Shown: in pieces, positions 2,681 to 38,498 of the stretch
Numbering within the stretch: the stretch's first letter is position 1
How the letters are laid out: the number at the start of each line of letters is the position of its first letter
Notes under the pieces: generated by a model
The model's input: the letters and a program-made list of their open reading frames with translations, nothing else
Told to the model about the DNA's origin: nothing
Database searches by the model: none
Assembly: GCF_003403315.2 (NCBI RefSeq)
Contig: NZ_CP048407.1
Span: forward strand, 2,666,001 to 2,730,000
Reading direction: 5' to 3'
Length of the DNA stretch: 64,000 nucleotides
DNA from: Thermaerobacter sp. PB12/4term
Lineage (GTDB): Bacteria; Bacillota; Sulfobacillia; Thermaerobacterales; Thermaerobacteraceae
Translations under genes and position numbers: made by a program

Positions 2681-4381
2681 ATGGCCAGGCGCGAGGGGCT
2701 GACGGCCGGCCAGCTGACCATGCTGGCCCTGGGCAGTGCCATCGGAGGAGCTTTCTTCCTGGGTTCCGCCGTGGCCATCCGCAGCGCCGGGCCCGCCGTC
2801 CTGCTGGGGTTTGCCGCAGGCGGCGCCCTCGTCTATGTGGTCCTGATGGCGCTGGCCGACCTCACCCTGGACGACCCGGCCCCCGGATCCTTTCGCGACT
2901 ACGCCCAGCGCGCCTTCGGCCCCCTGGCCGGCTTCGTGGTGGGGTGGGTGTACTGGGCCGGGCTCACCCTGGCCATGTCCAGCGAGGCAACGGCGGCGGC
3001 CGTGTTCCTGCGGGCGTGGTGGCCCGGCCTGTCCGGTCCCGTGCTGGCGACCCTGATCGTGCTGGTGGTAACGGGGTTGAACCTGCTGGGCGCTCGCCAG
3101 CAGGCCCGGCTGGAAGGCGCGCTGGCCGGCGTCAAGGTGCTGGCGGTGGCGGGGTTCGTCCTGGTGGCCCTGAGCCTGATCACGGGGCTCTGGCCCGGCA
3201 AGGCCCCGGTGGGGCTGGGCGCCCTGGCGCGCGAGCCCTGGCAGGCCGCAGGCTGGCGCGGGCTGCTGGGGGCCATGCTGGTGGTGATGTTCACCTACGC
3301 CGGGACGGAGATCATCGGGCTGGCGGCCCCCTCGGCCCGGGATCCCCGGCGGAACGTGGTCCGGGCGGCGCGGTGGACGGCTGTGGTGCTGGCCGGGCTC
3401 TACGTGCTGGCCGTGGGGGTGCTCTTGGCCCTGATCCCCACCCGCAGCCTGAGCGTTTCCGCCAGCCCCCTGGTGACGGCCCTGGCCGCCCACGGGCTGG
3501 GGACCGCCGCCCGCGCGGTCAACGGGGTCCTGGTGACGGCCATCCTGTCGACCATGCTGGCGGTGATGTTCAGCCTGGGCCGGGTGGTGCGCTCCCTGGC
3601 CGAAGACGGCATGGGGCCGGCCTGGCTGGTGGACCGCAGCCCCGTCCCGCGCCGCGGGATCCTGTTTTCTGGTGCGGTGATGCTGGCCGGGGTGGCCCTG
3701 GCCTACCTGGTGCCCCGGCAGGTATACCTGTTCCTGGTCAGCGCGGGCGGCTTCGCCCTGCTGCTGGTGTACGCCAGCATCGTGGCAGCCCACTGGCGGC
3801 TCCGGGCGGCACAGGCCCGGCTCCACGCCGCCGGTGGCCCACCCACCGGGCACCGGCCCACCCTGGTGCCCTGGTTCCCCTGGAGCAACGCCCTGGTCCT
3901 GGCCATCGTGGTGGCGGTGCTGGCGGGCATGCCCCTGGTGCCGGGCCAGGGCGCCGGGCTGGGGGCGGGCCTGGCCATGACCGCCCTGGCCGCAGGGATT
4001 TACGCCTGGCGGGCCCGGAGGCGCCCCCGGACCCCGGCGGAGGTCTGGAGTCCCGGACGGGAAGCAGCGGCCCGGGGCGAGCAGGCCCACGCGGCCCCTG
4101 CCTCCTCCGCGCCCCACCGCGCTCCGTCCCCGCCCCGGCGGCTCCGGCCGGAACCGGCCAGGGCGCCCCTTCAGGCGCCGGCACCCCTTCCCGCGCCCGC
4201 CCTGGAGTGGGAGGTGGCCCCCGAGATCGCGCCGGACGAACCCGCCACCAGCAGGACGCCGCCCCAGGCCTCCGGTCCCCAGGCGGCCGGCGGGCCGCGG
4301 CAAGCCCGCGAGCGGCGACGGCCGGGCCGGTCCCACCACCCCGGCCACCCCGGGAGGAAAGACAAAGGGCCCGCCGGATGA
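2681..4381 (+). CDS. APC-superfamily amino-acid permease
   Basis: Predicted cytoplasmic-membrane transporter of 566 residues. The first ~450 contain about twelve hydrophobic helices and begin with an LGSAIGGAFFLGSA segment that matches the Gly-rich first helix of amino acid-polyamine-organocation permeases; a helix with FTYAGTEIIGLAAP resembles the conserved helix 6 region. Overall it looks closest to basic or aromatic amino-acid permeases, but the substrate cannot be assigned. The last ~100 residues form an Arg/Pro/Ala-rich hydrophilic tail, unusual for the family. The ATG at 2681 follows AAGGGGGAG. It stands alone and is read toward the tRNA-Lys end of the next cluster. Confidence 0.85.
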   Translation: MARREGLTAGQLTMLALGSAIGGAFFLGSAVAIRSAGPAVLLGFAAGGALVYVVLMALADLTLDDPAPGSFRDYAQRAFGPLAGFVVGWVYWAGLTLAMSSEATAAAVFLRAWWPGLSGPVLATLIVLVVTGLNLLGARQQARLEGALAGVKVLAVAGFVLVALSLITGLWPGKAPVGLGALAREPWQAAGWRGLLGAMLVVMFTYAGTEIIGLAAPSARDPRRNVVRAARWTAVVLAGLYVLAVGVLLALIPTRSLSVSASPLVTALAAHGLGTAARAVNGVLVTAILSTMLAVMFSLGRVVRSLAEDGMGPAWLVDRSPVPRRGILFSGAVMLAGVALAYLVPRQVYLFLVSAGGFALLLVYASIVAAHWRLRAAQARLHAAGGPPTGHRPTLVPWFPWSNALVLAIVVAVLAGMPLVPGQGAGLGAGLAMTALAAGIYAWRARRRPRTPAEVWSPGREAAARGEQAHAAPASSAPHRAPSPPRRLRPEPARAPLQAPAPLPAPALEWEVAPEIAPDEPATSRTPPQASGPQAAGGPRQARERRRPGRSHHPGHPGRKDKGPAG

Positions 4382-4405
4382 CGCCTCCGGCCGGGCCCTG
4401 CAGGG

Positions 4406-4478
4406 TGGGCCATGAGGGAGTCGAACCCCCAACACCCCGGTTAAAAGCCGGGTGCTCTGCCAGTTGAGCTAATGGCCC
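4406..4478 (-). tRNA. tRNA-Lys(UUU)
   Basis: Acceptor GGGCCAT pairs with ATGGCCC; anticodon stem CCCGG/CCGGG encloses CTTTTAA (anticodon TTT); the T-arm contains GGTTCGACTCC. Discriminator A. The next three bases read CCC, so CCA is not encoded. It is the last tRNA of the His-Gln-Lys group. Confidence 0.96.
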
Positions 4479-4486
4479 CTCTTCTG

Positions 4487-4557
4487 CTGGGGCGGCAGGA
4501 TTCGAACCTGCGATCGAGGATCCAAAGTCCCCTGCCTTGCCGCTTGGCTACGCCCCA
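4487..4557 (-). tRNA. tRNA-Gln(UUG)
   Basis: Acceptor TGGGGCG pairs with CGCCCCA; anticodon loop CTTTGGA gives TTG; the discriminator G is usual for Gln. No encoded CCA. It lies 8 bases upstream of tRNA-Lys. Confidence 0.95.
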
Positions 4558-4619
4558 CCGAGGCCGGCATAAGGCCAATGGGCGGCTCAAAGCCTGTTCG
4601 GCTCGGAGCCGCCGCGCTG

Positions 4620-4694
4620 GGTGACTGAGGGGATTCGAACCCCCGACCTCCAGGGCCACAACCTGGCGCTCTAACCAGCTGAGCTACAGCCACC
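4620..4694 (-). tRNA. tRNA-His(GUG)
   Basis: Anticodon stem CCAGG/CCTGG encloses TTGTGGC (anticodon GTG). The extra G at position -1 (base 4694) opposite C73 (base 4620) is the histidine identity pair. It is the first tRNA of a His-Gln-Lys group. Confidence 0.96.
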
Positions 4695-5016
4695 ACGTTT
4701 CGTACCGCTGCGTTGCCTTGGCCCGGTGGTGCCCTGGCCGTCCCGGGGAACCGTCCCGGGGGACCTTCCCGGGGCTGCGCGCCGGGCGAGCAGGCTGGCC
4801 CCCATGCCGGCAGCAACCTGGGCAGTAGCCTGCCGCCGTCCGGACGGGCCTGGCGCTGCCCTGGCGGGGGCGGCGCCCGCACCGCGCGGCCCGGTCACCG
4901 CCGGATCGCGCCGCCGGGTCCCGGCACCACACCGGCTTCCCTATGATAGCACACCGGGCGTGCCCCGTGGACCCACCGGGCGTACCGGTTCCTCCCACTC
5001 CCGGCACCGCGCCGGC
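4695..5016. other. 322-base gap between tRNA-His and tRNA-Arg(UCU)
   Basis: No reading frame with family likeness is present. The sequence is GC-rich, with a tandem pair of near-identical CCCCGGGACGG-type words (minus strand) around 4740-4765 and a possible extended -10 at 4943-4951. It may be a long leader for the His-Gln-Lys transcript. No SRP RNA, RNase P RNA or riboswitch core was recognised. Confidence 0.5.
4943..4951 (-). promoter_or_regulatory. Possible extended -10 for tRNA-His-Gln-Lys
   Basis: The minus strand reads TGC-TATCAT, an extended -10 form. No good -35 lies 16-18 bases upstream. Transcription from here would give a leader of about 240 bases before tRNA-His. Confidence 0.4.
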
Positions 5017-5091
5017 TGGCGCGCCCGGAGGGATTTGAACCCCCGACCCACCGCTTAGAAGGCGGTTGCTCTTCCGCTGAGCTACGGGCGC
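5017..5091 (-). tRNA. tRNA-Arg(UCU), CCA encoded
   Basis: Acceptor GCGCCCG pairs with CGGGCGC; anticodon stem ACCGC/GCGGT encloses CTTCTAA (anticodon TCT); T-arm GGTTCAAATCC. Discriminator G is followed by genomic CCA, the only complete tRNA in the window where I see an encoded CCA. Confidence 0.96.
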
Positions 5092-5126
5092 GGGTGGAAG
5101 CGCCGGCAAACGCCGCGCGCCCGCTG

Positions 5127-5197
5127 AGCGGGAGACGGGAATCGAACCCGCGTCACCGGCTTGGAAGGCCGGCGCTCTACCATTGAGCTACTCCCGC
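5127..5197 (-). tRNA. tRNA-Gly(UCC)
   Basis: Acceptor GCGGGAG pairs with CTCCCGC; anticodon stem GCCGG-type around CTTCCAA gives TCC; T-arm GGTTCGATTCC. Discriminator T is usual for Gly. CCA is not encoded. Confidence 0.96.
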
Positions 5198-5275
5198 GTG
5201 TGAGCTCCTGCCCCGTGACGGGCCGGCTCTTCAAGCGGCCCGCTTCCGTGCCCGGGCGCGGGGGGCGCCGGGTTG

Positions 5276-5347
5276 TCGGGGCGGGCGGATTCGAACCGCC
5301 GACCTCTTGCTCCCAAAGCAAGCGTGCTGCCCCTGCACCACGCCCCG
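5276..5347 (-). tRNA. tRNA-Pro(UGG)
   Basis: Acceptor CGGGGCG pairs with CGCCCCG; anticodon stem CTTGC/GCAAG encloses TTTGGGA (anticodon TGG); T-arm GGCGG-TTCGAAT-CCGCC. Discriminator A. It begins only 13 bases after the rdgB stop codon and probably heads a Pro-Gly-Arg transcript. Confidence 0.96.
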
Positions 5348-5360
5348 CCGGTCCACGCCG

Positions 5361-6032
5361 TCAATTAACTATACCGTCCACCAGCCAGGCGCGCAACGCC
5401 GGCAGCAGCGCGCGCAGCGCCCGGGACCGGTGGCTGACGCGATTCTTCGCCCCCGTGCCCGCTTCGGCGAAGGTCATGCCCAGCTCGTCCGAGTAGAAGA
5501 GCGGGTCATAGCCGAAGCCGCCCTGGCCCCGGGGAGCTTCCAGGATCCGCCCGGGGGCCTCCCCTTCCGCCCATGTCCAGCGGCCGCCCGGCAGCGCCAG
5601 TACCACCACGCAGCGGAAGCGCGCCGTGCGGCGCGCAGCGGGCACACCGGCCAGTTCCGCCAGCAGGCGGGCGTTGTTGGCCGCGTCGCTGGCGCCGGGA
5701 CCGGCGAACCGGGCCGAGTGGACCCCGGGCCGCCCGCCCAGGGCATCGACGCACAGGCCGGAATCGTCGGCCAGGGCCGGCAGGCCCGCCTGCCGGGCCA
5801 CGGCCTCGGCCTTCAACCGGGCATTCTCCAGAAAGGTGGAACCCGTCTCTTCCGGCAGGTGCACGGGCCCCACCTGATCCAGGGTGAGGACCTGAATGGG
5901 CAGTCCCGCCGCCTCCAGGAGCTCTTCCAGCTCCCGCACCTTGCCCGGGTTGTGGGTGGCCAGCACCAGCCGGGCCGGCAGCCGGCCGGATCCTCCCGCT
6001 GGCGGACACTTCCCATCCCGCTGCATCTCCAT
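5361..6032 (-). CDS. rdgB: XTP/dITP diphosphatase (RdgB/HAM1 family)
   Basis: Hydrolyses non-canonical purine triphosphates (XTP, dITP, ITP) to monophosphates and pyrophosphate, keeping them out of DNA and RNA. Family motifs are all visible: [10 protein letters not shown] near the N-terminus, [27 protein letters not shown] and SHRSRALR near the end. About 223 residues from the ATG at 6032; an ATG six bases downstream is also possible, with AAAAGG a better distance away. The family is usually near 200 residues, so the N-terminus carries a short extra stretch. The 3' end contains the tRNA-Pro promoter. Confidence 0.92.
5368..5396 (-). promoter_or_regulatory. Promoter of tRNA-Pro, inside the rdgB coding end
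   Basis: The minus strand shows TTGCGC (5396-5391), a 17-base spacer and TATAGT (5373-5368). Both hexamers lie inside the last 36 bases of rdgB, so the coding end also serves as promoter. Hexamers and spacing are identical to those of the tRNA-Gly(GCC) promoter. Confidence 0.75.
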
Positions 6033-6171
6033 CACACCTTTTCGGCTTGCTGGCGCCTTGCCGGGCCCGGCCCAGCGCGGGCGGGGCACGGTCCATGGGC
6101 GCGCTCCTGCGCCTTCTCCGCCGGCCGCCCGGCGACCGCCAACGGGCCCCGGCCTGCGCGCGGCCGGCAAC

Positions 6172-7563
6172 TCAGGCCTGGCCCACGGGGACCAGGCCGG
6201 CCTTCAGCAGCTTCAGGGCGGCCGCCGGGTCGACCGCGGCCAGCAGGCCGGCGTGGCTCAACAGGTAATCCCCGTCGACCCAGAGGCGGGCCTGCCGAGG
6301 CCGCAGGACCGGCCCTTCGCCCTGGAGGTCCAGGGCCGCCGCCAGGATCCCGGCCGGGTCGGGGGCGTGGCGGAAGATGCCCCCCGTGCCGATGACATGG
6401 CGGATGCCGCGCAGGTCTTTGCCCCGCTGGATCCAGCGGCGGCCGTGGGGCGTGGCCAGGGTCTCACGGCGGCCGGCGTGGCGTTCCACCGCCAGCCGCA
6501 CCGCCGCCCGCGCCAGTTCCTGGTCGGCCAGTCGCTCCTCGGTCTCCTGGGGACCCGGCACAAAGGCCGGGTCGGCGGCGCGCCGCCGGACCCGCTGCAG
6601 CCAGGGGCTCGGACCGCCGCCCGCAGGGATGAACCCGGCCGCCTCGGCGAGGGACGGTGCTCCATGGCGCAGGCCCAGGTCGCCCTCCACGGTGCGCTGG
6701 CTGCGGGGCGGCGGCAGGCCGCGGAGCACGGTCTTGCCGTCGGTGGGCAGCCCGTCGGCCACCGAATGGACGTCGGTGGTGGCCCCGCCGATGTCCACCA
6801 CCAGCACATCCCCCAGGCCTTCTTCCGGCCCGGCGCCAGCGGCCAGAAGCTCCGCTCCGCGCAGGGCGGCGGCCGGGGTCGGCATCAGGATGGAGCCCAG
6901 GCGGGACTCCACCTCTTTCCAGCCCCGGGCCACCACGATGCGCTCCATGAAGACCCGCCGAATGGCCTCCCGCGCCGGTTCGACCTGCAGGGTGTCCAGG
7001 CGCGGCAGCACGTTCTCGACCACCACCACCGCCTTCCCCGCCGCCTCCAGGATGGCGGCCGCATCAGGGCTGGCCTCCCGGTTCCCGGCCACCACCACGG
7101 TGGCCCCGGTGGGGCAGCGGGCCAGGGCGCGGGCGAAGTCCAGCAGCGCGGTGCGGTTTCCCCCGTCGGTGCCACCCGCCAGCAGGATGATGTCGGGCTC
7201 CAGCTCCGCCAGCCGGTCAAGGTCGGCAGGGCGCAGCACACCGCTGAAGGTGGCCAGCACCCTTGCTCCCGCTCCCAGGGCGGCGCGGCGGGCCGCCTCG
7301 GCGGTCAGGCCGGGAACCAGCCCTACGGCCACCATGCGCAGGCCGCCGCCGGCGCTGGAGCACGCCAGCCGGTGACGAAAGGCGGGCAGGCGCCCGCCCA
7401 GGGCCTCCCGGAGGGCCTCCAGGGCCCCCTCCAGCCCCTGTTCCAGGCCGGTGGCGTAGGTGGTGGGCGCCTGGGCGCGGGCCAGAAGGCGCGGCGGGTC
7501 CAGGTCGACGGCCGAAACCTTGGTAAAGGTGCTGCCGAAATCGACCAGCAGGGCGACGTTCAT
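6172..7563 (-). CDS. GlmL/MutL-type ASKHA ATPase
   Basis: A 463-residue protein of the family named after GlmL/MutL, the accessory protein of the coenzyme-B12-dependent glutamate mutase locus. The N-terminus has a phosphate-1 loop, [19 protein letters not shown] lies near 170 and [10 protein letters not shown] near 280, the pattern of the actin/Hsp70/sugar-kinase ATPase fold. Family members are thought to reactivate or load B12-dependent mutases. No mutase subunit lies in the window, so the client is unknown. The ATG at 7563 follows GGGGAGGG; the frame is open 69 bases further upstream. Confidence 0.8.
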
Positions 7564-9470: not shown

Positions 9471-9673
9471 CAGGTTCCTCCTCGGACAAACCGGCCCGCG
9501 CCCGCCCGGCCCGGGCCGGGCGGGCATGCCACCGCAGCCCGGCCATCGGCGGCCGGGCCACGCCACGACGGTGCCACCGGGCCGCAGCCAGCCGGCGCCG
9601 CGCGCCGGCTTCCGCCCACAAGCACGCCGGCGCCCCGGGCGGCCGGGATCACCGGCCACCCGGGGCGCCCCGG

Positions 9674-10021
9674 TGGAGGTGCGGGGATTTGCACCCCGGT
9701 CCGCCGGCGGGCCAGCCGGAGCCTCTACGAGCGTAGCCCCTGGATGGGTCTCGCCCTCCCGTCCCCCAGGGGCAGGGTCCGGGACGGGCCAGCCCGCTTG
9801 GATCTCACCGCCCGCCCCGCGGGCCGGGCAGGCGGCCAGCCTGCTGCATGAAACCGCGCCCGCCCCGCAGGCAGGGGCTCACGCGGCTTGGCCGCTAGCG
9901 ATTAAGCAGCCAGAGCGAGCTCTTCGTTGGCACTTATTGGCCGTTCCGCTGTTTAACGAGGGGCGGAACCTCGGCTCGCTTCTCCAACCCACCCTACCGG
10001 CGTCGAATCTAAATCACCCCC
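9674..10021 (-). ncRNA. ssrA: Transfer-messenger RNA (tmRNA)
   Basis: About 348 bases. The 5' end GGGGGTG pairs with the 3' end CACCTCC (one G-T pair), and the tRNA-like 3' part has GGGGTGCAAATCCCC. The tag frame at 9931-9902 encodes ANEELALAA followed by TAA, a classic Firmicute-like proteolysis tag. CCA is not fully encoded (CCG follows the discriminator A). It works with SmpB, encoded 263 bases upstream, to release stalled ribosomes. Confidence 0.95.
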
Positions 10022-30198: not shown

Positions 30199-31134
30199 TC
30201 AAGACGCCGACGCCAGGCGCGGGATCTCCTCCACCGGGAACTCCAGCTCGATCAGCTCGCCGCCCCGCAGCACCGTCAGCCGGGCCCGGTCGCCCGGCCG
30301 CCGGTAAGCCAGCACCTTGCGGATGGTCCCGGCGTGGGTCACCGGCTGGTCGTCGGCGCGCACCACCATGTCGAAGGGCTTGATGCCCGCCCGCTTGCCC
30401 GGCCCGTTGTCGGCCACGTGGCCGACCACCAGGCCGCGGTCCACCGGCAGGGCGAAGAGCTGGGCCAGGGCGGGGTCCACCACGTCGGGCTGGCCCGAGA
30501 AGCCCAACCAGGGGTGGGTGGCACGGCCGAACTCGATGATCTGGTTCACCACCCGGCGCACCACGTCGCCCTGCACCGCCAGGCTCATGCCGTGGGACCA
30601 GGGGATGCCGTTGACCCCGGCCACGGCGCCGTCCAGGGTGACCAGGGGCCCGCCGGTGTTGCCGGGGTGCATGGGCGCCTGGGTGACGATCAACCCGTCC
30701 ACAGGAATGCGGTCGGGACGGTACAGGGTCATGTCCACGGTGCTGACGATGCCGAAGGTGGCGTTGAGCTGCAGGTTGAGAGGGTAGCCCGCGGCCACCA
30801 CGAAGTGGCCCACCCGCAGCTCGGCCGTGGGCCGCCAGGTGGGAAGGGGCCCCGGGAACCGCTCGGCGAGCCGCAACACGGCGATGAAGTACACCGGATC
30901 CGACCCGACGACGGTGGCATCCACCTTGGTTCCGCCGGGCAGGGTCACCACCACCTCGGCGGCGTCGTCCACCGTCTGGGCGTTGCAGATCACGTGCCAG
31001 TGGTCGAAGAGGATCCCCGTGCCAAAGGCCGTGGTCTGGCGCTTGCGGTCGGTCCCTGCCACGTGGCAGAGGAACGGCCGCACCCGCTCCAGGGTTTCGA
31101 CAATGGCCGTCTCCCAGCCGAACGGTTGCATCAT
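30199..31134 (-). CDS. HtrA-like PDZ protein with a lost catalytic triad
   Basis: 311 residues. Residues ~25-200 follow the trypsin-like HtrA/DegP fold (FGTGILF, VTLPGGTKVDATVVGSDP, AAGYPLNLQL, GNTGGPLV) and ~215-300 a PDZ domain (HPWLGF, NGPGKRAGIKPFDMVVRADDQPV). All three catalytic positions are changed: His is Gln53 (CNAQTV for TNxHVV), Asp is Phe83 (DPVYFIAVL for DxxxDIAVL) and Ser is Thr160 (GNTGG for GNSGG). It should be a non-proteolytic binding protein. There is no signal peptide or membrane anchor, unlike most HtrA proteins. Two adjacent ATGs (31134, 31131) could start it. Confidence 0.82.
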   Translation of the reverse strand: MMQPFGWETAIVETLERVRPFLCHVAGTDRKRQTTAFGTGILFDHWHVICNAQTVDDAAEVVVTLPGGTKVDATVVGSDPVYFIAVLRLAERFPGPLPTWRPTAELRVGHFVVAAGYPLNLQLNATFGIVSTVDMTLYRPDRIPVDGLIVTQAPMHPGNTGGPLVTLDGAVAGVNGIPWSHGMSLAVQGDVVRRVVNQIIEFGRATHPWLGFSGQPDVVDPALAQLFALPVDRGLVVGHVADNGPGKRAGIKPFDMVVRADDQPVTHAGTIRKVLAYRRPGDRARLTVLRGGELIELEFPVEEIPRLASAS

Positions 31135-31274
31135 GGCGATCGCCCCAAGCCGTTGAGCCCGGCGCGCGCCGGGCTTTCGCGAAGTAACCGGCCTTGGAAG
31201 GGAAGAAGCGCTACCGGCCCCAATGAACCAAGGGGCGGCGCCGGCCTGTCTTGCACCGGTCACCGCCCCTGATG

Positions 31275-31349
31275 TGCGCCCGGCAGGAATCGAACCTGCG
31301 CAAGACGTGGCTCCGGAGGCCACCGCTCTATCCGCTGAGCTACGGGCGC
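31275..31349 (-). tRNA. tRNA-Arg(CCG)
   Basis: Acceptor GCGCCCG pairs with CGGGCGC; anticodon stem GTGGC/GCCAC encloses CTCCGGA (anticodon CCG); T-arm GCAGG-TTCGATT-CCTGC. Discriminator A; CCA not encoded. A strong promoter lies 36 bases upstream. Confidence 0.96.
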
Positions 31350-31890: not shown

Positions 31891-32328
31891 ATGGTACCCG
31901 CAAGCGGGTTGCCGGTTCAACCGGCGCATCCCGGCCGCCACGATGCCGGTGCAGCGCAGGGTAGCGCGCCAGCCGGCCAACATCACCACGGCACCGGTCA
32001 TCAGCACGGTGATCCGCTGTTGCGCCGGCACGGCCAGCCCCAGGTCCACAGCTGGCTGGCCCAGCGGCCCACCACCTTCTGGGGAAAGGTCAAGCAGTTC
32101 GTCTGGGGCTTCCTCTTTTTCGACTGGTATCACGAGCTTCAGCATGCCCGCTCCCAGTACAACGACGTGATGAACCTGGTGCTGTTTGGCGAGCTCTTGG
32201 GGATCCCGCTGATGAACTCGTCCATCGGGCTGCGGCTGCTGCCCTATGTCCTGCCCGACCTGGGCGCCTGGAAGCACCGGCAGCTGGAAGAGCACCTGGT
32301 CGAGGAGCATGCGCCCCACATCCATTAG
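31891..32328 (+). CDS. Small His-rich protein, homologue of the ArsA-linked small protein
   Basis: 145 residues, family not recognised. The first ~55 residues are His-rich, including the run HHHGTGHQH at 31-39. The remainder has two amphipathic or hydrophobic stretches (KQFVWGFLFFDWY, NDVMNLVLFGELLGIP) and the string LGIP-x7-LRxLPY-x7-WKxR at 103-130. That string recurs with identical spacing in the 99-residue protein at 36291-36590, so the two are homologues. AAGGAGG lies 9 bases before the ATG. The gene is followed by a membrane-anchored protein and converges on the ArsA-type operon. Function unknown; membrane association is inferred from hydrophobicity. Confidence 0.72.
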   Translation: MVPASGLPVQPAHPGRHDAGAAQGSAPAGQHHHGTGHQHGDPLLRRHGQPQVHSWLAQRPTTFWGKVKQFVWGFLFFDWYHELQHARSQYNDVMNLVLFGELLGIPLMNSSIGLRLLPYVLPDLGAWKHRQLEEHLVEEHAPHIH

Positions 32329-32420
32329 GCGTCAGGCCTTGGGGGTTTGGAGGCATGCGCCCCATAAGGGCGCCCCGGGGAACACGGCCCCGGGTGGAAC
32401 CGGCGGGTGAGGTGAACCCC

Positions 32421-32975
32421 GTGCCCGAACCGCTTCTGGACCGCATCGCGCTGGCCGTGGCCGTCCTGCTGGTCCTGTGGTGGGTGGCCGGCCGGCAGTG
32501 GAACCGGCACCGGGCGGTACAGCTCGCCCGGGTGGCCCGGGAAGCCATGGCCACGCTGGGCGGCGACGTCACGCTGCGCGCCCTGGGTGGCGGCACCAGC
32601 GGCTTCATCATGGAAGTGGGCCGCCCCGGGCCGGGCATCCGCTCCGCCCAGATGCTGTGCCTCCTGGAGCCCCGCGATTTTCCCCTGGCCTGGGCCTGGA
32701 CCCGCTGGCGCGGCCGGCGGGACCAGTTCATCCTGAAGATTGAGGCCACGGCGTCCTTGCGCCCGGCGCGCCTGGAGGGCCGGAGCGGGCCGGCGGGCGG
32801 GTTCGGCCTGCGCCGGCTGGTGCTGGCCGCCACCCAGGCCCAAAGTCCCCATGTTCAGGTGAGCTTTGGTGTGGGACCGGGCGAGGAAAGCGACATCCCG
32901 CGGGCCGTCCAGCTGGCGGCCGGGCTTGCCCGGGGCGAGCTGCAACTGGCGGCCCGGGGACAGGATTCGGCTTGA
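32421..32975 (+). CDS. Unknown protein with one N-terminal membrane helix
   Basis: 184 residues, not recognised. Residues 8-24 (IALAVAVLLVLWWVAG) form one transmembrane helix, followed by a basic stretch (RQWNRHR) that would keep the rest in the cytoplasm. The soluble part is mixed alpha/beta, without Cys pairs or a known motif. The GTG at 32421 has GAGGTGA about 8 bases upstream. It lies 92 bases after the small His-rich gene, probably in one operon, and ends 13 bases from the convergent thioredoxin-like gene. Confidence 0.6.
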   Translation: MPEPLLDRIALAVAVLLVLWWVAGRQWNRHRAVQLARVAREAMATLGGDVTLRALGGGTSGFIMEVGRPGPGIRSAQMLCLLEPRDFPLAWAWTRWRGRRDQFILKIEATASLRPARLEGRSGPAGGFGLRRLVLAATQAQSPHVQVSFGVGPGEESDIPRAVQLAAGLARGELQLAARGQDSA

Positions 32976-32988
32976 GATGCCACTGCTC

Positions 32989-33396
32989 TTATCCCGCGGC
33001 CTGGTCTTCGCCCAGGCACGATGCCAGGAGGCGGTCTATGGCCTCGTAGCCTTCATCCAGCCGCACGCAGCGGCCCGCGGCCACCAGGGCCACTTGGCCG
33101 GTGCCGATGCCGTACCGGGTGGCCAGCCACATGCCCCTTAGGGAAGTAAGGGGAACGGTGACCACCTGCAGCCGCCAGCCGAAACGGGCCGCCAGGTGAG
33201 CCACAAGGGACTCCAGCTGCCGCTGCCGCGCCTGTTCCTCCGGCGGATAGTCCTGGGTCTGGTCCGCAGGCCACTCCAGGCCACAGCCCGCACCCCAGCC
33301 CATGCCGCGCGGGCACATCTTGTAGATGAGGGGAAACAGGCCGACGATCTCCACCCGCAGGGGACGTCGCCGGCTCTTCCTGCCCAGGGTCGCCAC
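32989..33396 (-). CDS. Small thioredoxin-like protein (ArsD-like position)
   Basis: 135 residues, no sure family. The predicted order of elements fits a thioredoxin-like fold: strand VEIVGLFPLIY, a Cys-containing loop (MCPRGMGWGAGC, two Cys ten residues apart), helix RQLESLVAHLAARFG, strand RLQVVTVPL, a helix, strands QVALVAAGRCVRL and a last helix. ArsD, the metallochaperone of ArsA, has such a fold and genomic position, but its vicinal Cys motif is absent here. The GTG at 33396 follows GGGAGGG. It is the last gene of the ArsA-type operon, 51 bases after the preceding one. Confidence 0.5.
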   Translation of the reverse strand: MATLGRKSRRRPLRVEIVGLFPLIYKMCPRGMGWGAGCGLEWPADQTQDYPPEEQARQRQLESLVAHLAARFGWRLQVVTVPLTSLRGMWLATRYGIGTGQVALVAAGRCVRLDEGYEAIDRLLASCLGEDQAAG

Positions 33397-33447
33397 TTTC
33401 CCGTCCCTCCCTGGCGCACCGGCTTGGCCCCGCCCGCGCCGGATTCC

Positions 33448-34125
33448 TTAATGGCACCGCCACTCCGCCAGCAGGGCCTCCCAGGCAGCCTCCAGGTCGC
33501 CCGGCTCAACGCCTGGCACCGCTTCCAGGCGGATGTGCAGGCGGCGGCGAGTGAAGCCACACTCCAGCACCAGCGCGCGGGCCGGCCGCCACCGGCCGGG
33601 GAACCCGCGCCGTACGGCACCTGCGGCCCACCAGCCTGGGTGGCCGTCCAGCAGGCAGGTACCCGTGGCGTCGATCCGGCCGAGCCCCCAATCCCTGGTG
33701 GCGGGGCGGCCACCACCTCTCTTCCCTGATGCCCTTGCCTGCGGGACGCCCTTTCCGGTCCGGGGGCCAGCGTTCCGCCCGTCGCGCCCCGCTGCCGACA
33801 CCGCCTCCGCCGCCGGCGTCCCGGGGCCGGCGGCCACCGCTCCAGCCGGCGTGACATGGAGGAAGAGCTCCGCCCGCAGTGCCGCCCTGCCCCCCGTACC
33901 GGTCCGGGCAGCCAGCCACCAGTGGCCACGACCCGCCGTGGCCCAGCTGACGCCATCCCGCACGTGCCAGCGGTCGACCTCGGGCGGGAAGGCTCCGTCC
34001 CCCAGGCGCCATCCGGCCGGCACCCCCAGCAGCAGCAGGTTGCACGTGCCGAAGACCACGCTGCGGACGGCCAGCAGGTGGGGCCGGGCGGCGTCCCGCC
34101 CGGCCCCCTGGGCCCCCGCGCTCAC
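33448..34125 (-). CDS. Unknown protein coupled to the second ArsA-type ATPase
   Basis: 225 residues, not recognised. It looks bipartite: an N-terminal ~90 residues (SVVFGTCNLLLLGVPAGW, RDGVSWATAGRGHWW), a low-complexity Gly/Arg linker of ~50, and a C-terminal part with DGHPGWWAAG and RRRLHIRLEAVPGVEPGD. The GTG start overlaps the stop of the preceding ATPase gene in a GTGA arrangement, so it is probably made in fixed ratio with that ATPase. Confidence 0.6.
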   Translation of the reverse strand: MSAGAQGAGRDAARPHLLAVRSVVFGTCNLLLLGVPAGWRLGDGAFPPEVDRWHVRDGVSWATAGRGHWWLAARTGTGGRAALRAELFLHVTPAGAVAAGPGTPAAEAVSAAGRDGRNAGPRTGKGVPQARASGKRGGGRPATRDWGLGRIDATGTCLLDGHPGWWAAGAVRRGFPGRWRPARALVLECGFTRRRLHIRLEAVPGVEPGDLEAAWEALLAEWRCH

Positions 34126-35153
34126 CCGGTCACCTGGGCCAGGGCCCAGTGCTGGTCGGGATCGAAGAGGTCATCCACCGCCTGCTTGAGGGCGTCCAGG
34201 CCGTGCACCTCGCTCTTGTACAGGGGCAGGAAGGCGCGGACCAGGTCGCCCAGTTCCCGCTGGATCCGCTCCAGATAGCCCGCCTGCTCCTGGTACTTGT
34301 TCAGAAGGTACTCGTCGCCGCTGGCTTTCTCCACCTCTTCGCCGCGAATGACACCGTTGACCAGGACCCCGCCCACGGGAATGTCATAGGCGCGCACCAT
34401 CTTGATGAAGCGGGTGACCACGGAGATGGGCAACGCCAGGGGCAGGGTGACGAAGAAGAAGGCGGTCAGGTTGGGGTCGACCAGCAGCCGCTTGACCGCC
34501 TTAAACCGCTCGTCCATGGCGATCAGGTCGGCCAGCATGGGGTCCTTCTTGACTTCTTCCATCACCTTTTCCTTGCGGAAGCTCAGCTGCACCCGTAGCG
34601 AGAGCGCCTCCTTGCGCGACTCGATCATCCGCTGGAGCCACAGGCCGTAGATCTTGGACAACCCGATGAGCCGCACGGCGTTGGCCACCGCCGCCGTATC
34701 GAACACCAAGATGTCGTACTCCTGACCCTCCCGCAGCATGATGTCGACCATCTTGTCGAACATGGCCGACTCTTCGAAGGCAGGGTTCGTCACGGCAATG
34801 TCGACGAAGGGCTTGGCATCGACGGGGATGTCCGCATACTTGAGGAATTCCTTCACCCGCTGGCCGATGTTCTCCCGGTAGCGGGCCACCACGTCCGAGG
34901 CATCCACCTCGACGGCATGGAGGTTGGGTACGCCCTGTACCGGGCGCACCTGGCCGCCCGACAGGTCCTGGCCGAACACCGACGTCAGCGAATGCACGGG
35001 GTTCAGGCTGGCCAGCAGGGTGCGCTTGCCCTGCTCGGCAAAATGGTACGCCAGCACGGCGGCACAGATGGTCTTGCCCACACCACCCTTGCCGCCGGTG
35101 AACACGAATTTCAACTGGGGGTGCTCCTGCAAGAAGGCTCCGATATGCTGCAC
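34122..35153 (-). CDS. ArsA/Get3-type ATPase, probably hydrolysis-impaired subunit
   Basis: 343 residues of the ArsA/Get3/MinD P-loop class. The deviant Walker A with both lysines, GGKGGVGKT, is at 20-28. Two catalytic loops are altered: the switch I Asp (STDP in Get3, Asp57 in yeast) is Asn51 in ASLNPVHSL, and the DTAPTGH signature is DTAAVAN at 152-158. Both changes predict weak or no ATP hydrolysis. There is no CxxC zinc motif as in Get3. The GTG at 35153 follows AAAGGAGTGA. It is 49 bases downstream of its intact paralogue, with which it may form a heterodimer. Confidence 0.8.
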   Translation of the reverse strand: MQHIGAFLQEHPQLKFVFTGGKGGVGKTICAAVLAYHFAEQGKRTLLASLNPVHSLTSVFGQDLSGGQVRPVQGVPNLHAVEVDASDVVARYRENIGQRVKEFLKYADIPVDAKPFVDIAVTNPAFEESAMFDKMVDIMLREGQEYDILVFDTAAVANAVRLIGLSKIYGLWLQRMIESRKEALSLRVQLSFRKEKVMEEVKKDPMLADLIAMDERFKAVKRLLVDPNLTAFFFVTLPLALPISVVTRFIKMVRAYDIPVGGVLVNGVIRGEEVEKASGDEYLLNKYQEQAGYLERIQRELGDLVRAFLPLYKSEVHGLDALKQAVDDLFDPDQHWALAQVTG

Positions 35154-35202
35154 CCGTGGTCACTCCTTTGCGGCTCCCCAGGCCCCGCCCCGGACCCGTC
35201 CG

Positions 35203-36219
35203 TCAGGCCTCCAGGGCGATCTCGCAGTTCATCAGGTAGCGGGAAGCCTGCTCGATCATCTCCAGCCCCTTGGGCTCCCGGGTGAACATGGGCACCACCG
35301 ACTGGACCCGGTCGCCGAACTTGCGGGCAATGTCGGCCAGGTGCTGCTGTTGCATCAGGACCCGGTTGCGCAGGTACTCCGACGTACCGGGGCGATCCAG
35401 CAGCTCCCGCGGGTACACCTGGTTGACCACCAGGCCGGACATCTCCATGCCCAGGGCGTGGAACATCGCCAAAGCCCGCTCGGTGTCGAGGATCGCCATC
35501 TTTTCCGGGATCAGCACCATGAAGAAGGCTGTGCGGCGGCGGTCGGTGATGAGGTCGGTGAAGGCCTTGATCTTGTTGCGGATGTCGATCAGTTCCTGCA
35601 TGACCGCGTCCTCATGGCCCTTCTCGCCCTTGAGGGTCGCGGCAATGGCATCGTACTCGGCCACCTTGGAGCGAGCCTCGGTGATCTTCTCCACCCATTT
35701 GGAGAGAATGTCGGCCATGGCCACCATGCGCACCCCGTGGCCGAAGGGCGGCATGTCGAAGATGTAGATGTCGTATTCGTGGGCCGCCACCAGCTCGGCC
35801 ATGGCATCGTAGGTGGCGGACTCGTACATGGCCGGCTCCGCGGAGGTGGAGTCGATGTACTCCTCGATCTCCCGCGGCACCTCGTCCAGGCCGTACATGT
35901 CCTTGATCTTCTGTTTCACCGACGCCTGGTAGTCGGCCACCCGGCGGTCCGCGTCGATCTCGACCACGAACAGGTTGGGGGCCACCTCGATCTCGCCCAG
36001 GCCGTAGAAGTTGCGCTCGAAGATATCGCTCAGCGAGGCCTGGGGATCGGTGCTGAAGAGCAGCGTCCGCTTCTTCTTCACCTGGGACATGTACCAGGCC
36101 AGGGACGAGCTGGACGTGGTCTTGCCCAGGCCGCCCTTTCCCGCGAAGATGACGATCTCCACGTCGGGGTGCTCGTTGAAGTACGACTCCAGTCCCCGGG
36201 GCCGTACCAGGGTGGGCAT
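35203..36219 (-). CDS. ArsA/Get3-type ATPase, active-looking subunit
   Basis: 338 residues. Deviant Walker A AGKGGLGKT at 26-34; switch I STDPQASLSD with Asp58; switch II signature DMPPFGHG at 155-162, a variant of DTAPTGH. All catalytic groups needed for hydrolysis appear present. Middle segments (SAEPAMYESA) align with NPAFEESA of the second ATPase, showing common origin. No CxxC motif, no arsenic-binding Cys triad, single ATPase domain, so arsenite transport is unlikely. The ATG at 36219 follows GGAGTGGAGG. It is preceded by the small LGIP/LPY protein gene. Confidence 0.82.
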   Translation of the reverse strand: MPTLVRPRGLESYFNEHPDVEIVIFAGKGGLGKTTSSSSLAWYMSQVKKKRTLLFSTDPQASLSDIFERNFYGLGEIEVAPNLFVVEIDADRRVADYQASVKQKIKDMYGLDEVPREIEEYIDSTSAEPAMYESATYDAMAELVAAHEYDIYIFDMPPFGHGVRMVAMADILSKWVEKITEARSKVAEYDAIAATLKGEKGHEDAVMQELIDIRNKIKAFTDLITDRRRTAFFMVLIPEKMAILDTERALAMFHALGMEMSGLVVNQVYPRELLDRPGTSEYLRNRVLMQQQHLADIARKFGDRVQSVVPMFTREPKGLEMIEQASRYLMNCEIALEA

Positions 36220-36290
36220 GCCTCCACTCCTCCCTTTCAGCGTCTCCGGCGGCACCGGCGCCAGGCCCTCTCCAGGAGACTCGCTCATCC

Positions 36291-36590
36291 TCAGTAGATG
36301 GCGTCGGTGAAGTCCCGCTCCCGGAAGACCCGCTGCTTCCACGACTCGATGTTGGGAACGGCGTACGGCAGGATGCGCAGGCTGTAATAGGGCGGCAGCA
36401 CGGGGATGCCGAGCATGTCGCCCAGGGTGATGAACATGAACAGGTGCTCCAGGTGCATCCGGGTGCGCAGCGCCGCCGTGACGTTGCCGTGGCTCGCCAT
36501 GCCGTACATGACGCCCCGGAGCTTGGTCAGGAACCCAGCCTTCTGCTCCTTGCGGGCTCCGTTGGCCGGCCCGTCCTTGCGACCCAACAT
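36291..36590 (-). CDS. Small LGIP/LPY protein heading the ArsA-type genes
   Basis: 99 residues, no recognised family. A basic N-terminus (RKDGPANGARKEQK) is followed by a likely helix-rich hydrophobic middle (HLFMFITLGDMLGIP) and the string LRILPY-x7-WKQR at 71-87. It matches the C-terminal half of the 145-residue protein at 31891-32328 without gaps. The ATG at 36590 is favoured because AAAGGAGG lies 9 bases upstream; an in-frame ATG at 36596 is too close to it. It lies 135 bases after cstA and 71 before the first ATPase. It might be a peripheral membrane partner or substrate of the ATPases. Confidence 0.7.
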   Translation of the reverse strand: MLGRKDGPANGARKEQKAGFLTKLRGVMYGMASHGNVTAALRTRMHLEHLFMFITLGDMLGIPVLPPYYSLRILPYAVPNIESWKQRVFRERDFTDAIY

Positions 36591-36725
36591 GGGCATGCGC
36601 CTCCTTTGTCGACCTTGGCCCGGCCCGGTAGGTGGAACCGGCCCGGCCGCCGCCACGGATGGCGGATCCGGCGGCGGGCCCTGCCGCGGTGGCAGGGCCC
36701 GCCGCGACGGCCGCCTCGGTGCCGG

Positions 36726-38498
36726 TCAGTCGCCCGGTGCCGCCTGCGGCTGGGCCAGCAGGCCCGCCTTGGCGCGGCCGTACGCCTGCAGCGTCAGGAT
36801 CGCCATCCGCAAGCCGAGGACGAAGAGCACCACGCCGATCAGCACCGACGCCCAGTCGATGATGTTGGCGACGGTGGGCGCCAGGGTCTTGAGCGGGTCC
36901 TGGGTCAGCGTCTTGGCGGGCCCCCCCAGGGCGGCCTGGAGGAAGCGCACCGTCTGGACGGCGATGGCCGCCAGGGTGGTGACGATCATGAACAGGGCCG
37001 GGACCAGGGTGTAGCGGCTGGGCGCCTTGACCCGGGCCAGGTGGATGGTAATCAGCATCAGGGCCAGGCCGGCCAGCAGCTGGTTCGACCCGCCGAAGAA
37101 CAGCCAGATGTTGTTCCACGAGCCGCTGACCGCCATGATCCATGGCAGCAGCAGGCCGATGAAGGTGGCCACATGCTTCTGGGCCAGGATGCTCTCGCCG
37201 AACACCTCGACGGAGACCAGGCGCCAGAAGCGGGTGACCAGGGCCTGGACGGTGATGGCGTAGATGACCAGCACCGTACCGAAGAACACGCGAATGGCGT
37301 TGTCGGACATGAAGGCGCCAAGGATCGGCTTGGTGATCAGCGTCGCTCCGAACACCCAGGAACCGACGCTGGCGCCGCCCAGCTCGGCGATGCGCTCCGG
37401 GCTGAGCACCATGTAGGAGGCCAGGGACACCAGCGCCAGCAGGCCCTCGCCCAGCATGGCGCCGGCGCCCACGGGGTGGGCGTCGGGCTCGATGTCCAGC
37501 TGCTTGGCGGTGCTGGACGAGCTGACCAGGCTATGCCACCCCGAGATGGCACCGCAGGCGATGGCCGTGAACAGCACAGGCCACATGGGGTTGCCGCCAG
37601 CGGCAAAGCTGCCCTTGGGCCCCCAGAAGCCGACATACGCCGGCTGCGCCAGGGTGACCCCGGTCAGGGGGGTGATCAGCGCGCCCACCAGGATCACCAG
37701 CACCGCGAACATGGCGGGGAAGAAGGACACGTAGTTGAAGGGCTGGATGAAGGTGGGCAGCGGCAGGATCGAGCCCACGTACAGGATGACGCAGCACAGC
37801 GCCGCCCAGAGCCAGACGTTGAAGTTCAGCGCGCCCTGGGCCGTCAGGTTGAACTTCACCGCCTGGCCGATGCTGGTGGAACCCAGCCAGAAGGACAGGA
37901 TCATCAGGGCGAAGGCGATCAGGGTCACCGCGCCCACGTTCATCCGGCGCTTGTACAGCAGCTGGCCGCAGATCACACCGGTGAGGATGATGCCGGCGGT
38001 GGCCACGAACGACCCCGCGAAGGTGTTCCAGAATACGGCGATCAGCTGGATGAAGGTGGCCGAGATGATCAGCAGGTAGAACAGGATGAAGCCCAGCAGG
38101 GTACTGCGTCCCGCGGCCCCGGTGAACTCGTAGGTGATCGGACCGAAGGACCGCCCCTGGTTGCGCACCGACAGCATGATGGCCCCGTAGTCCTGGAGCC
38201 AGCCGATGAAGAAGTTGCCGAAGATGATCCACAGCAGGGCGGGGACCCAGCCGTACTGGATGGCGATGAAGGGTCCCAGAATGGGCCCCAGGGCGGCGAC
38301 GCTCTTGTACTGGTAGCCCCAGAGCACGTAGCGGCTGACGGGGAAGTACTCGACCCCGTCGGTGTACATGTGGGCCGGCGTGGTGCGGTTGGGGTCAGGC
38401 CGCCAGACCGTGCGGTCGTACCAGCGCCCGTATCCCCAGTAGGCGATGCCGTAGGCGATCAGCGCCAGCACCACGAACATCGCCGGCGAGTTGAGCAT
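36726..38498 (-). CDS. cstA: CstA-family transporter
   Basis: Carbon-starvation protein family; members import peptides or pyruvate. 590 residues with about 16 membrane helices. Family landmarks include YWGYGRWYDRTVW, ALGPILGPFIAIQYG, a GPITYEFTG segment, AISGWHSLVSSSSTAKQL and GSNQLLAGLAL. The ATG at 38498 has a GGGGAGAGG site. The substrate cannot be read from the sequence. It is on the same strand as, and directly upstream of, the ArsA-type genes, and could share their transcript. Confidence 0.92.
   Translation of the reverse strand: MLNSPAMFVVLALIAYGIAYWGYGRWYDRTVWRPDPNRTTPAHMYTDGVEYFPVSRYVLWGYQYKSVAALGPILGPFIAIQYGWVPALLWIIFGNFFIGWLQDYGAIMLSVRNQGRSFGPITYEFTGAAGRSTLLGFILFYLLIISATFIQLIAVFWNTFAGSFVATAGIILTGVICGQLLYKRRMNVGAVTLIAFALMILSFWLGSTSIGQAVKFNLTAQGALNFNVWLWAALCCVILYVGSILPLPTFIQPFNYVSFFPAMFAVLVILVGALITPLTGVTLAQPAYVGFWGPKGSFAAGGNPMWPVLFTAIACGAISGWHSLVSSSSTAKQLDIEPDAHPVGAGAMLGEGLLALVSLASYMVLSPERIAELGGASVGSWVFGATLITKPILGAFMSDNAIRVFFGTVLVIYAITVQALVTRFWRLVSVEVFGESILAQKHVATFIGLLLPWIMAVSGSWNNIWLFFGGSNQLLAGLALMLITIHLARVKAPSRYTLVPALFMIVTTLAAIAVQTVRFLQAALGGPAKTLTQDPLKTLAPTVANIIDWASVLIGVVLFVLGLRMAILTLQAYGRAKAGLLAQPQAAPGD

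Follow-up and report, generated by a model that had tools for sequence, protein, structure and literature searches.

The window analysed is a 64,000-nucleotide stretch of the Thermaerobacter sp. PB12/4term genome (contig NZ_CP048407.1), and the eight genes of the cluster described here are all located at positions 31891-38498, arranged on both strands as the initial annotation had it (Table 1). Gene bounds were checked by starts, stops and ribosome-binding-like sites. The ends of cstY and of the thioredoxin-like gene converge 13 bp apart, and because cstX-b and cstY run convergent to the other six genes, no single transcript spans all eight. A promoter and terminator scan of the locus was uninformative. 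Identity as a defence system was rejected, with no meaningful PADLOC match in the cassette, as was a phage origin, with no significant PHROG match.

Table 1. Genes of the cstA-associated cassette, with positions in the 64,000-nucleotide window.
Gene	Position	Strand	Product and features
cstA	36726-38498	-	590 aa CstA-family transporter; Pfam PF02554 (CstA) E 8.4e-98
cstX-a (99-aa protein)	36291-36590	-	Small protein, one marginally hydrophobic segment
ATPase A1	35203-36288	-	361 aa; Pfam ArsA_ATPase E 1.8e-66
ATPase A2	34122-35153	-	343 aa; Pfam ArsA_ATPase E 7e-55
225-aa protein	33448-34125	-	Overlaps A2 by 4 bp
Thioredoxin-fold protein	32989-33396	-	135 aa
cstX-b	31891-32328	+	145 aa, His-rich N-terminus; paralogue of cstX-a; AGGAGG precedes ATG
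cstY (single-helix protein)	32412-32975, or from ATG at 32355	+	TM helix and globular domain

The order cstA, 99-aa protein, A1, A2 is kept in every one of the 21 relatives with a close homologue of the 99-aa protein, although in one of them the contig stops short of cstA. Among 33 loci with complete flanks, most of them from other phyla, exactly two ATPases are present in every case, accompanied by the nutrient transporter CstA (31 loci), at least two small CstX proteins (31), the single-helix CstY (26), a thioredoxin-like protein (20) and the 225-aa protein family (10); the neighbourhoods otherwise contain only local neighbours, with no recurrent extra family. GTDB genomes hold 365 loci related to cstX-a. 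A search across Firmicutes was first suggested for the cassette, a scope that proves too narrow, as it is found in Chloroflexota, Thermoproteota, Bathyarchaeota, Asgard archaea, Thermodesulfobacteriota and other groups besides Bacillota, with a gene set common to bacteria and archaea in shuffled order. The cluster is thereby confirmed as a genuine, widespread cassette of about eight genes, and its arrangement is far beyond chance. The co-occurrence proposed in the initial annotation is borne out by these counts and by the recurrence of the cluster in other genomes, and the dedicated membrane-associated ATPase cassette that it envisaged around CstA and the LGIP/LPY (CstX) proteins is conserved as a unit.

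A1 and A2 are each single-domain proteins. The A1 P-loop reads GKGGLGKTT and its switch I (STDPQASLS) retains the catalytic Asp, whereas A2 has the P-loop GKGGVGKTI, a switch I with Asn in place of this residue (SLNPVHSLT) and the switch II DTAAVAN. In the alignment, all 87 A1 members have D at the position equivalent to Get3 D57 and all 87 A2 members have N there; the eight single-ATPase relatives all keep D. The catalytic aspartate of Get3 primes water for ATP hydrolysis (PMC10248533), and the invariant D/N pair leads to a clean prediction that can be tested, namely that ATP is hydrolysed on one side only. Neither this asymmetry nor the CCDC47 likeness of CstY described below had been remarked on in the initial annotation. 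Phylogenetically, the A1 clade (support 98) and its sister A2 clade (support 100) resolve as two ancient paralogous clades.

Both ATPases score above the TIGR00345 cut-off of 135 (A1 222.8 bits, A2 196.6 bits) and are closest by sequence to archaeal Get3; the closest solved structures for A1 are the archaeal 3zq6 and 3ug6. A2 aligns to archaeal Get3 with no large gap, in contrast to an 18-column gap against ArsA (9nbo/9nbl), and a helical insert missing from ArsA is retained in the ATPases, after switch II and ahead of the C-terminal part. Any CxxC, the Get3 dimer-interface zinc site, occurs in one of 87 A1 and none of 87 A2 sequences. The ArsA cysteine triad is likewise absent from these alignments, which average less than one Cys per protein, and no ArsB, ArsR or ars neighbours were found beside the cassette in the neighbourhoods of the loci, all in agreement with the absences first recorded. 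Membership of ArsA was rejected, with 94 and 98 bits to the two-domain equivalog TIGR04291 against a cut-off of 650. The comparison made at the outset with Rv3679/Rv3680 (BagA/BagB) is a fair analogy, in that these are also two adjacent Get3/ArsA-type ATPases and are reported as a heterodimer, however it does not extend to membership: against the NCBIfam models the window proteins score 26-45 bits (34.1/44.6 for a cut-off of 400 and 26.6/33.7 for one of 521).

The core of cstX-a reads GD(M/L)LG(I/V)P-LPPYYSLR-LPY, and the gene always lies immediately upstream of A1 in the 21 relatives. The window encodes a second copy, cstX-b, with 23% identity to cstX-a across the core, and exactly two CstX are found in 14/14 CstX-positive Thermoproteota genomes; CstX proteins occur as a pair. 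Homologues of these small proteins were not found widely without an ArsA-type gene: at a strict threshold, CstX adjoins such an ATPase in 15/15 Bacillota genomes (Fisher p 7e-11), and five Bacillota genomes have the CstX-ATPase pair without an adjacent CstA. By gene adjacency the ATPase, and not CstA, is the constant partner of CstX. The CstX segment has a hydropathy of ~1.5, marginal for a membrane helix. Scores of 32-34 bits to the NCBIfam cory-CC-star model NF041419 (cut-off 80) mark CstX as a distant relative only; the CstX relatives next to single ATPases end in CC, and the window copies end in DAIY and HIH. YbdD/YjiX (PF04328) was rejected as a CstX homologue, with no match and an hhalign probability of ~1% from a YbdD profile that is shallow because PF04328 is absent from the 200 sampled Bacillota. 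Asterix was also rejected, as the profiles gave no match and a score of -1.4 bits that fell among decoys.

The AlphaFold2 model of CstY (pLDDT 92.7) comprises one N-terminal transmembrane helix and a globular alpha/beta domain, and its top Foldseek matches are to CCDC47 (7tm3_4, E 2.9e-4, prob 1.00, TMq 0.65; 9i78_4, E 2.9e-3). CCDC47 is a subunit of the human PAT complex, a membrane-protein chaperone of the multipass translocon, and prokaryotes are said to be without PAT (PMC9630114; PMC13261788). The Pfam CCDC47 model PF07946 weakly matches 11 of 49 CstY sequences (E up to 1; best 18.8 bits), none of which reaches the gathering score of 27.7 bits. In the reciprocal test, seven of the 11 matches of this model across 37 whole genomes are CstY. 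With a profile of archaeal CstY, CCDC47 from human and from fungi reaches 13-14 bits, and the best of 115 membrane decoys 2.3 bits; by hhalign the full set of 49 CstY did not rise above decoys against human CCDC47, the archaeal subset alone exceeding them. Run against PDB sequences, the CstY profile did not by itself match CCDC47, so the link rests on the fold, Pfam, reciprocal and decoy tests jointly. Together, the predicted fold of transmembrane helix plus globular domain and a weak but specific colinear sequence similarity, including helix-G-N and LxR(E/Q)(N/D) motifs, liken CstY to CCDC47. CstY differs in being half the size, its model beginning at the membrane helix and ending after one 13-residue helix, without the luminal acidic N-terminus and C-terminal latch helices, and CCDC47 has Asterix as its partner, whereas CstX is not Asterix-like. 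CstY is adjacent to CstA in 7/7 cases and nowhere else, which makes CstA its constant partner.

In the CstA tree, a branch with an SH-aLRT of 100 separates 76 ArsA-linked CstAs from 13 unlinked CstAs, beside which no accessory gene was found. The ArsA-linked proteins group as one separate clade, known only with the cassette, and the long branch leading to it is as compatible with a change in transport as with one in assembly. The thioredoxin-fold protein was modelled by AlphaFold2 with a pLDDT of 86.6; its best PDB matches are thioredoxins, with weak TM-scores and a consistent fold, and its relatives match DUF1525 and Thioredoxin_3. CxxC is present in 22/40 family members and has been lost from the window copy (CPRG). 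This subunit belongs to the cassette. ArsD was rejected as a model for it, as no ArsD is among the best 50 structural matches. The 225-aa family also aligns with members in archaeal cassettes, and matches nothing in Pfam, NCBIfam, PHROG or PADLOC.

The cluster had been put forward as an undescribed system, however CstA-CstX-CstY-ArsA clusters were reported by Castillo and Saier in 2010, who proposed that ArsA energises CstA (PMC2963123); no experiment on the cluster or this proposal was found in the literature searched. Their clusters contain CstA, a CstX of ~90 aa, a single-helix CstY of ~210 aa and a single-domain ArsA of ~330 aa, in bacteria and archaea and without ars genes. The cassette in the window matches this account in composition and sizes, a match made by description and not by individual sequences. 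In that report two CstX and neighbouring ArsA pairs were each seen in only two organisms, CstY was archaeal only and CstX never occurred without CstA, whereas here both normally come in pairs, many bacterial cassettes have CstY and CstX-ATPase pairs are found without CstA. Thermococcus kodakarensis is named there as a carrier of two CstX. Also new are the D/N clades, with one ATPase always D-to-N, the CCDC47-like nature of CstY, the pairing and partners of CstX, the thioredoxin-fold and 225-aa subunits in the set and the single ArsA-linked CstA clade.

The published proposal is the chief rival of the reading favoured below: the ATPase pair would dock on CstA through CstX and make an ATP-driven or ATP-gated transporter out of a secondary one, as ArsA does with ArsB, CstY and the thioredoxin-like protein being auxiliary subunits. 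This is possible, albeit doubtful. CstA adjoins the ATPase pair in 31/33 loci, its ArsA-linked clade is separate and on a long branch, and coevolving trees accompanied the proposal in print (PMC2963123). The E. coli CstA family also requires a small partner, YbdD (PMC5847655), and the order btsT-yjiX-yjiA likewise places transporter, small protein and P-loop NTPase in a row, with the CC-terminus of YjiX/YbdD shared by the cory-CC-star branch of CstX; however, homology between YbdD and CstX is undetectable and the GTPase YjiA is from another family. With the arsenite pump ArsAB the cassette shares an ATPase superfamily, energisation being proposed by analogy, and it differs in lacking ArsB, ArsR, ArsD and the cysteine triad. 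The five Bacillota genomes with no CstA next to the CstX-ATPase pair, the closeness of the ATPases to Get3 rather than ArsA, their missing ArsA cysteines and the hint of membrane-protein handling in the CCDC47 likeness of CstY argue against coupled transport.

We tentatively favour, at somewhat below an even chance, a CstA-dedicated membrane-assembly device in which a lopsided Get3-type heterodimer works with CstX and a CCDC47-like subunit. This reading draws on gene content, conservation, the D/N split, CstX pairing, the CstA clade and the ATPase-CstX and CstY-CstA linkages, all seen at the sequence level, and on a CCDC47 resemblance and thioredoxin fold that come from prediction with weak sequence similarity. 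We infer that A1 and A2 form an obligate Get3/ArsA-fold heterodimer in which both subunits would bind ATP and A1 alone would hydrolyse it. CstX proteins may be ligands specific to the ATPases, serving as clients or as adaptors that recruit them to the membrane, and CstY would sit in the membrane next to CstA with its CCDC47-like domain in the cytosol, the thioredoxin-like protein being a probable accessory. The ATP-bound heterodimer would shield either weak CstA helices or the CstX segment with its marginal hydrophobicity, and pass what it shields to CstY/CstA, a chaperone fusing the ideas of GET and PAT. The likeness to Get3/TRC40 lies in the fold, the deviant Walker A GKGGxGKT, the helical insert and archaeal Get3 as nearest relative; the cassette differs in having two distinct subunits, one without the catalytic Asp, in lacking CxxC and any identified Get1/Get2, and in being tied to a multipass transporter. 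Against the assembly reading, a biogenesis factor serving one transporter is unusual, the Get3 CxxC is absent, and CstY is below the Pfam cut-off and lacks the latch helices and luminal N-terminus. That CstY is a true prokaryotic CCDC47 homologue, and the cassette a chaperone coupling a half-dead Get3-type heterodimer to a PAT-like subunit whose relatives may be ancestral to eukaryotic PAT, seems rather unlikely; if true, a CCDC47-like protein tied to Get3-like ATPases in archaea and bacteria would make the process tractable in prokaryotes and might show where the eukaryotic system came from. Bacterial shielding of marginally hydrophobic helices is described in reviews and primary papers as largely uncharacterised, and the 2010 proposal now has a defined alternative to be weighed against.

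A1/A2 and CstX might instead form a switch, or a holdase, that controls CstA activity in an ATP-dependent manner when cells starve or are under oxidative stress; the thioredoxin-fold protein would then sense the redox state. The frequency of this subunit and of its CxxC, and the redox-switched chaperone role of eukaryotic Get3/TRC40 described in PMC9803280, are in keeping with such gating, which is nevertheless improbable given the many cassettes without the gene, the lost CxxC of the window copy and the ATPases' lack of the Get3 CxxC. That the genes are chance neighbours of unrelated functions is scarcely credible: the convergence of cstX-b and cstY and the presence of the 225-aa gene in only a third of loci would allow it, however bacteria and archaea keep the same gene set through reshuffling, and the CstX-positive Thermoproteota consistently carry two CstX.

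The features described in the initial annotation are all present at the positions it reported (table below), in a host genome assembled as one contig of 2.82 Mb. The genes for CstA, a 99-aa protein, two Get3/ArsA-type ATPases (A1 and A2), a 225-aa protein and a 135-aa thioredoxin-like protein follow each other in one direction with close spacing; the 225-aa gene and A2 share 4 bp. Two convergent genes encode a 99-aa protein paralogue and a single-helix protein. Among the cassette proteins, Pfam and NCBIfam name just CstA and the two ATPases; both small proteins match the NCBIfam 'cory-CC-star' model far under its cut-off.

Cassette genes, neighbouring features and loci read for comparison
Feature	Sequence	Position	Strand	Remark
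cstX-b	window	31891-32328	+	99-aa protein paralogue
cstY	window	32412-32975	+	single-helix protein
135-aa gene	window		-	thioredoxin-like
225-aa gene	window		-	
A2	window	34122-35153	-	ATPase
A1	window	35203-36288	-	ATPase
cstX-a	window	36291-36590	-	99-aa protein
cstA	window	36726-38498	-	
tRNA-Arg(CCG)	window	31274-31349	-	right outside cassette; overlapping ORFs are artefacts
HtrA/PDZ-type serine protease-like ORF	window	30199-31200	-	downstream of cassette; resemblance by eye
tmRNA	window	9672-10021	-	tag ANEELALAA
ATPase remnant	L223	7099-7323		75-aa open stretch with FDTAPTG
btsT-yjiX-yjiA	L192 (E. coli K-12)	2910-6280		

The proposal that this system is undescribed does not hold, as CstA-CstX-(CstY)-ArsA clusters were reported in 26 cases by Castillo & Saier 2010 (PMC2963123), with CstX of ~90 aa and CstY of ~210 aa carrying one membrane segment each, a single-domain ArsA of ~330 aa, and the suggestion that CstA is energised by ArsA via CstX. 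Judged by size, context and topology, the 99-aa protein and its paralogue are the CstX of these clusters, and CstY is the single-helix protein. We found no later experimental work in the literature searched; the outline of the cassette has been known since 2010, yet it is uncharacterised. Three features are new, as far as our searches show: the ATPase pair is universally split D/N, CstX is linked primarily to the ATPase, and CstY resembles CCDC47, a protein of the PAT complex.

The cassette is real, ancient and widespread. Of 61 related genomes, 21 encode a protein closely homologous to the 99-aa one, and the order cstA, 99-aa gene, A1, A2 is kept in all 21 (in one of them the contig stops short of cstA), even where CstA identity falls to 33-38%. 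A scan of GTDB species genomes returned 365 related loci, 80 of which were kept, from Bacillota, Chloroflexota, Acidobacteriota, Thermodesulfobacteriota, Rokubacteria, Bacteroidota, Bathyarchaeota, Thermoproteota, Asgard archaea and others. All 33 loci with full flanks encode exactly two ATPases; 31 include CstA and 31 two or more small proteins. Of the same 33, 26 encode the single-helix protein, 20 the thioredoxin-like protein and 10 the 225-aa protein, and gene order and strand vary. The small protein is also present in 14 of 29 genomes of the archaeal phylum around one match, always in exactly two copies, and the two of these read throughout carry the same gene set. No further recurrent gene family adjoins the cassette in these neighbourhoods, only local neighbours. 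A family of response regulators resembling REC-LytTR types recurs near cstA in five loci (L049, L051, L057, L132 and L138); BtsR regulates btsT in E. coli, and by analogy these regulators may point to pyruvate-like sensing.

Across 87 aligned A1/A2 pairs, A1 always carries the motif S(T/V)DPQASL(S/T) and A2 S(T/L)NP(V/I)HSL, such that the position of yeast Get3 D57 is aspartate in 87/87 A1 and asparagine in 87/87 A2. In Get3 this aspartate primes the water attacking ATP (PMC10248533). The identical D-to-N change distinguishes the sequences of solved ArsA structures 9nbl and 9nbo in both halves, and we read 9nbo as an engineered hydrolysis-dead form. Switch II is also split, with GH in A1 and AN in nearly every A2. 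The aspartate is kept in 8/8 single-ATPase Bacillota loci. In a tree, A1 and A2 are sister clades supported at 98 and 100 whose inner splits mirror each other, and single ATPases of related loci branch outside them; the pair arose by one ancient duplication. The nearest structures to both are archaeal Get3, and for A2 also algal ARSA1; A1 and A2 keep a helical insert missing in ArsA, and lack both the CxxC of Get3 and the ArsA cysteines. We infer that A1 and A2 form an obligate heterodimer in which one subunit hydrolyses ATP.

Of 250 sampled Bacillota genomes, 15 encode CstX-type proteins and 45 encode ArsA-type ATPases (E below 1e-25), the two lying side by side in 14 of the 15 CstX genomes (Fisher p 7e-11); in the fifteenth the adjacent ATPase scores more weakly. 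In five of the 15, a CC-ended CstX adjoins a single ATPase and CstA is not nearby; CstX is therefore tied first to the ATPase and second to CstA, contrary to the published view that CstX is always accompanied by CstA (PMC2963123). Such CC-terminated relatives of the cory-CC-star type, paired with a single ArsA-type ATPase without CstA (L181, L183, L184 and L187; genomes G080, G123, G224 and G296), possibly constitute a separate system; the L184 pair adjoins a Cys-rich protein with the motif CQVPLCANYGRHLLCPP. CstY, present in 7 of the 250 genomes, lies beside CstA in 7/7, one case retaining just an ATPase remnant. At locus L223, where a remnant of an ArsA-type gene separates cstA from a cstY-like gene, the cassette seems to have lost its ATPase.

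AlphaFold2 predicts for the window CstY (49-row alignment, mean pLDDT 92.7) a globular alpha/beta domain along with a long membrane helix, and the best PDB match to this model is CCDC47 (7tm3 chain 4, E 2.9e-4, probability 1.00, TM 0.65). CCDC47 is also matched in 9i78 chain 4 (E 2.9e-3, probability 1.00) and in human 6w6l chain 7, the next unrelated structures having probability <=0.23. Sequence agreement is weak but specific: the Pfam CCDC47 model matches 11/49 CstY (best E 0.001, under cut-off) and any other model at most 3, and among 37 whole genomes searched with it at E up to 10, 7 of 11 matches fall on CstY (converted coordinates), most spanning just the membrane helix and following stretch. 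Scored with a profile built from 15 archaeal CstY, human CCDC47 reaches 13.7 bits and a Chaetomium fragment 13.1, compared with 2.3 for the best of 115 membrane-protein decoys, and hhalign aligns archaeal CstY with human CCDC47 colinearly over 164 columns (score 29.9, decoys' best 19.6; probability 21% with a single-sequence template). The full 49-row alignment did not exceed decoys against human CCDC47 in hhalign, and a PDB search with the CstY profile gave no match. The human CCDC47 and Asterix probe sequences were confirmed residue by residue with PDB chains. CstY lacks the latch helices and luminal N-terminus of CCDC47; it is CCDC47-like, with homology probable but unproven. PAT components have been described as absent from prokaryotes (PMC9630114) and without obvious bacterial homologues (PMC13261788).

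A single segment of CstX is marginally hydrophobic (mean hydropathy ~1.5). As a tentative first choice, A1/A2, CstX and CstY may serve membrane assembly: the heterodimer would bind CstX at its marginal membrane segment, or else weak helices of CstA, and deliver to CstY beside CstA, with A1 hydrolysis as a one-sided timer. Alternatively, and somewhat less probably, CstX could link the ATPase to CstA so that ATP drives or gates uptake. Cassette CstAs form one clade (support 100) on a long branch apart from 13 unlinked CstAs, beside which none of the cassette genes was found; this special clade and the published coevolution fit transport, and assembly as well. The Get3-like ATPase features, the occurrence of CstX-ATPase pairs away from CstA, and a subunit resembling CCDC47 speak for assembly rather than transport.

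Redox or regulatory gating is improbable. The 135-aa protein has a predicted thioredoxin fold (pLDDT 86.6; best PDB matches thioredoxins, weak) and relatives matching DUF1525 and Thioredoxin_3; CxxC is present in 22/40 relatives and missing in the window copy.

CstX has no detectable homology to Asterix or to YbdD, sharing with YbdD/YjiX just a short GxP motif and, in the cory-CC-star branch, a C-terminal CC. Where present in relatives, YbdD-type PF04328 adjoins a second, classical CstA; genomes G022, G042 and G057 (L157, L059-L061) have two such systems, one with a full-length CstA of the classical kind and PF04328 (YbdD-like, ...MRCC), the other with an ArsA-linked CstA. E. coli CstA needs YbdD (PMC5847655), and btsT-yjiX-yjiA encodes a transporter, a small CC-ended protein and a P-loop GTPase, which shows that carriers of the CstA family act together with small proteins in other settings too. 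The similarity of this layout to the cassette is possibly a convergent design.
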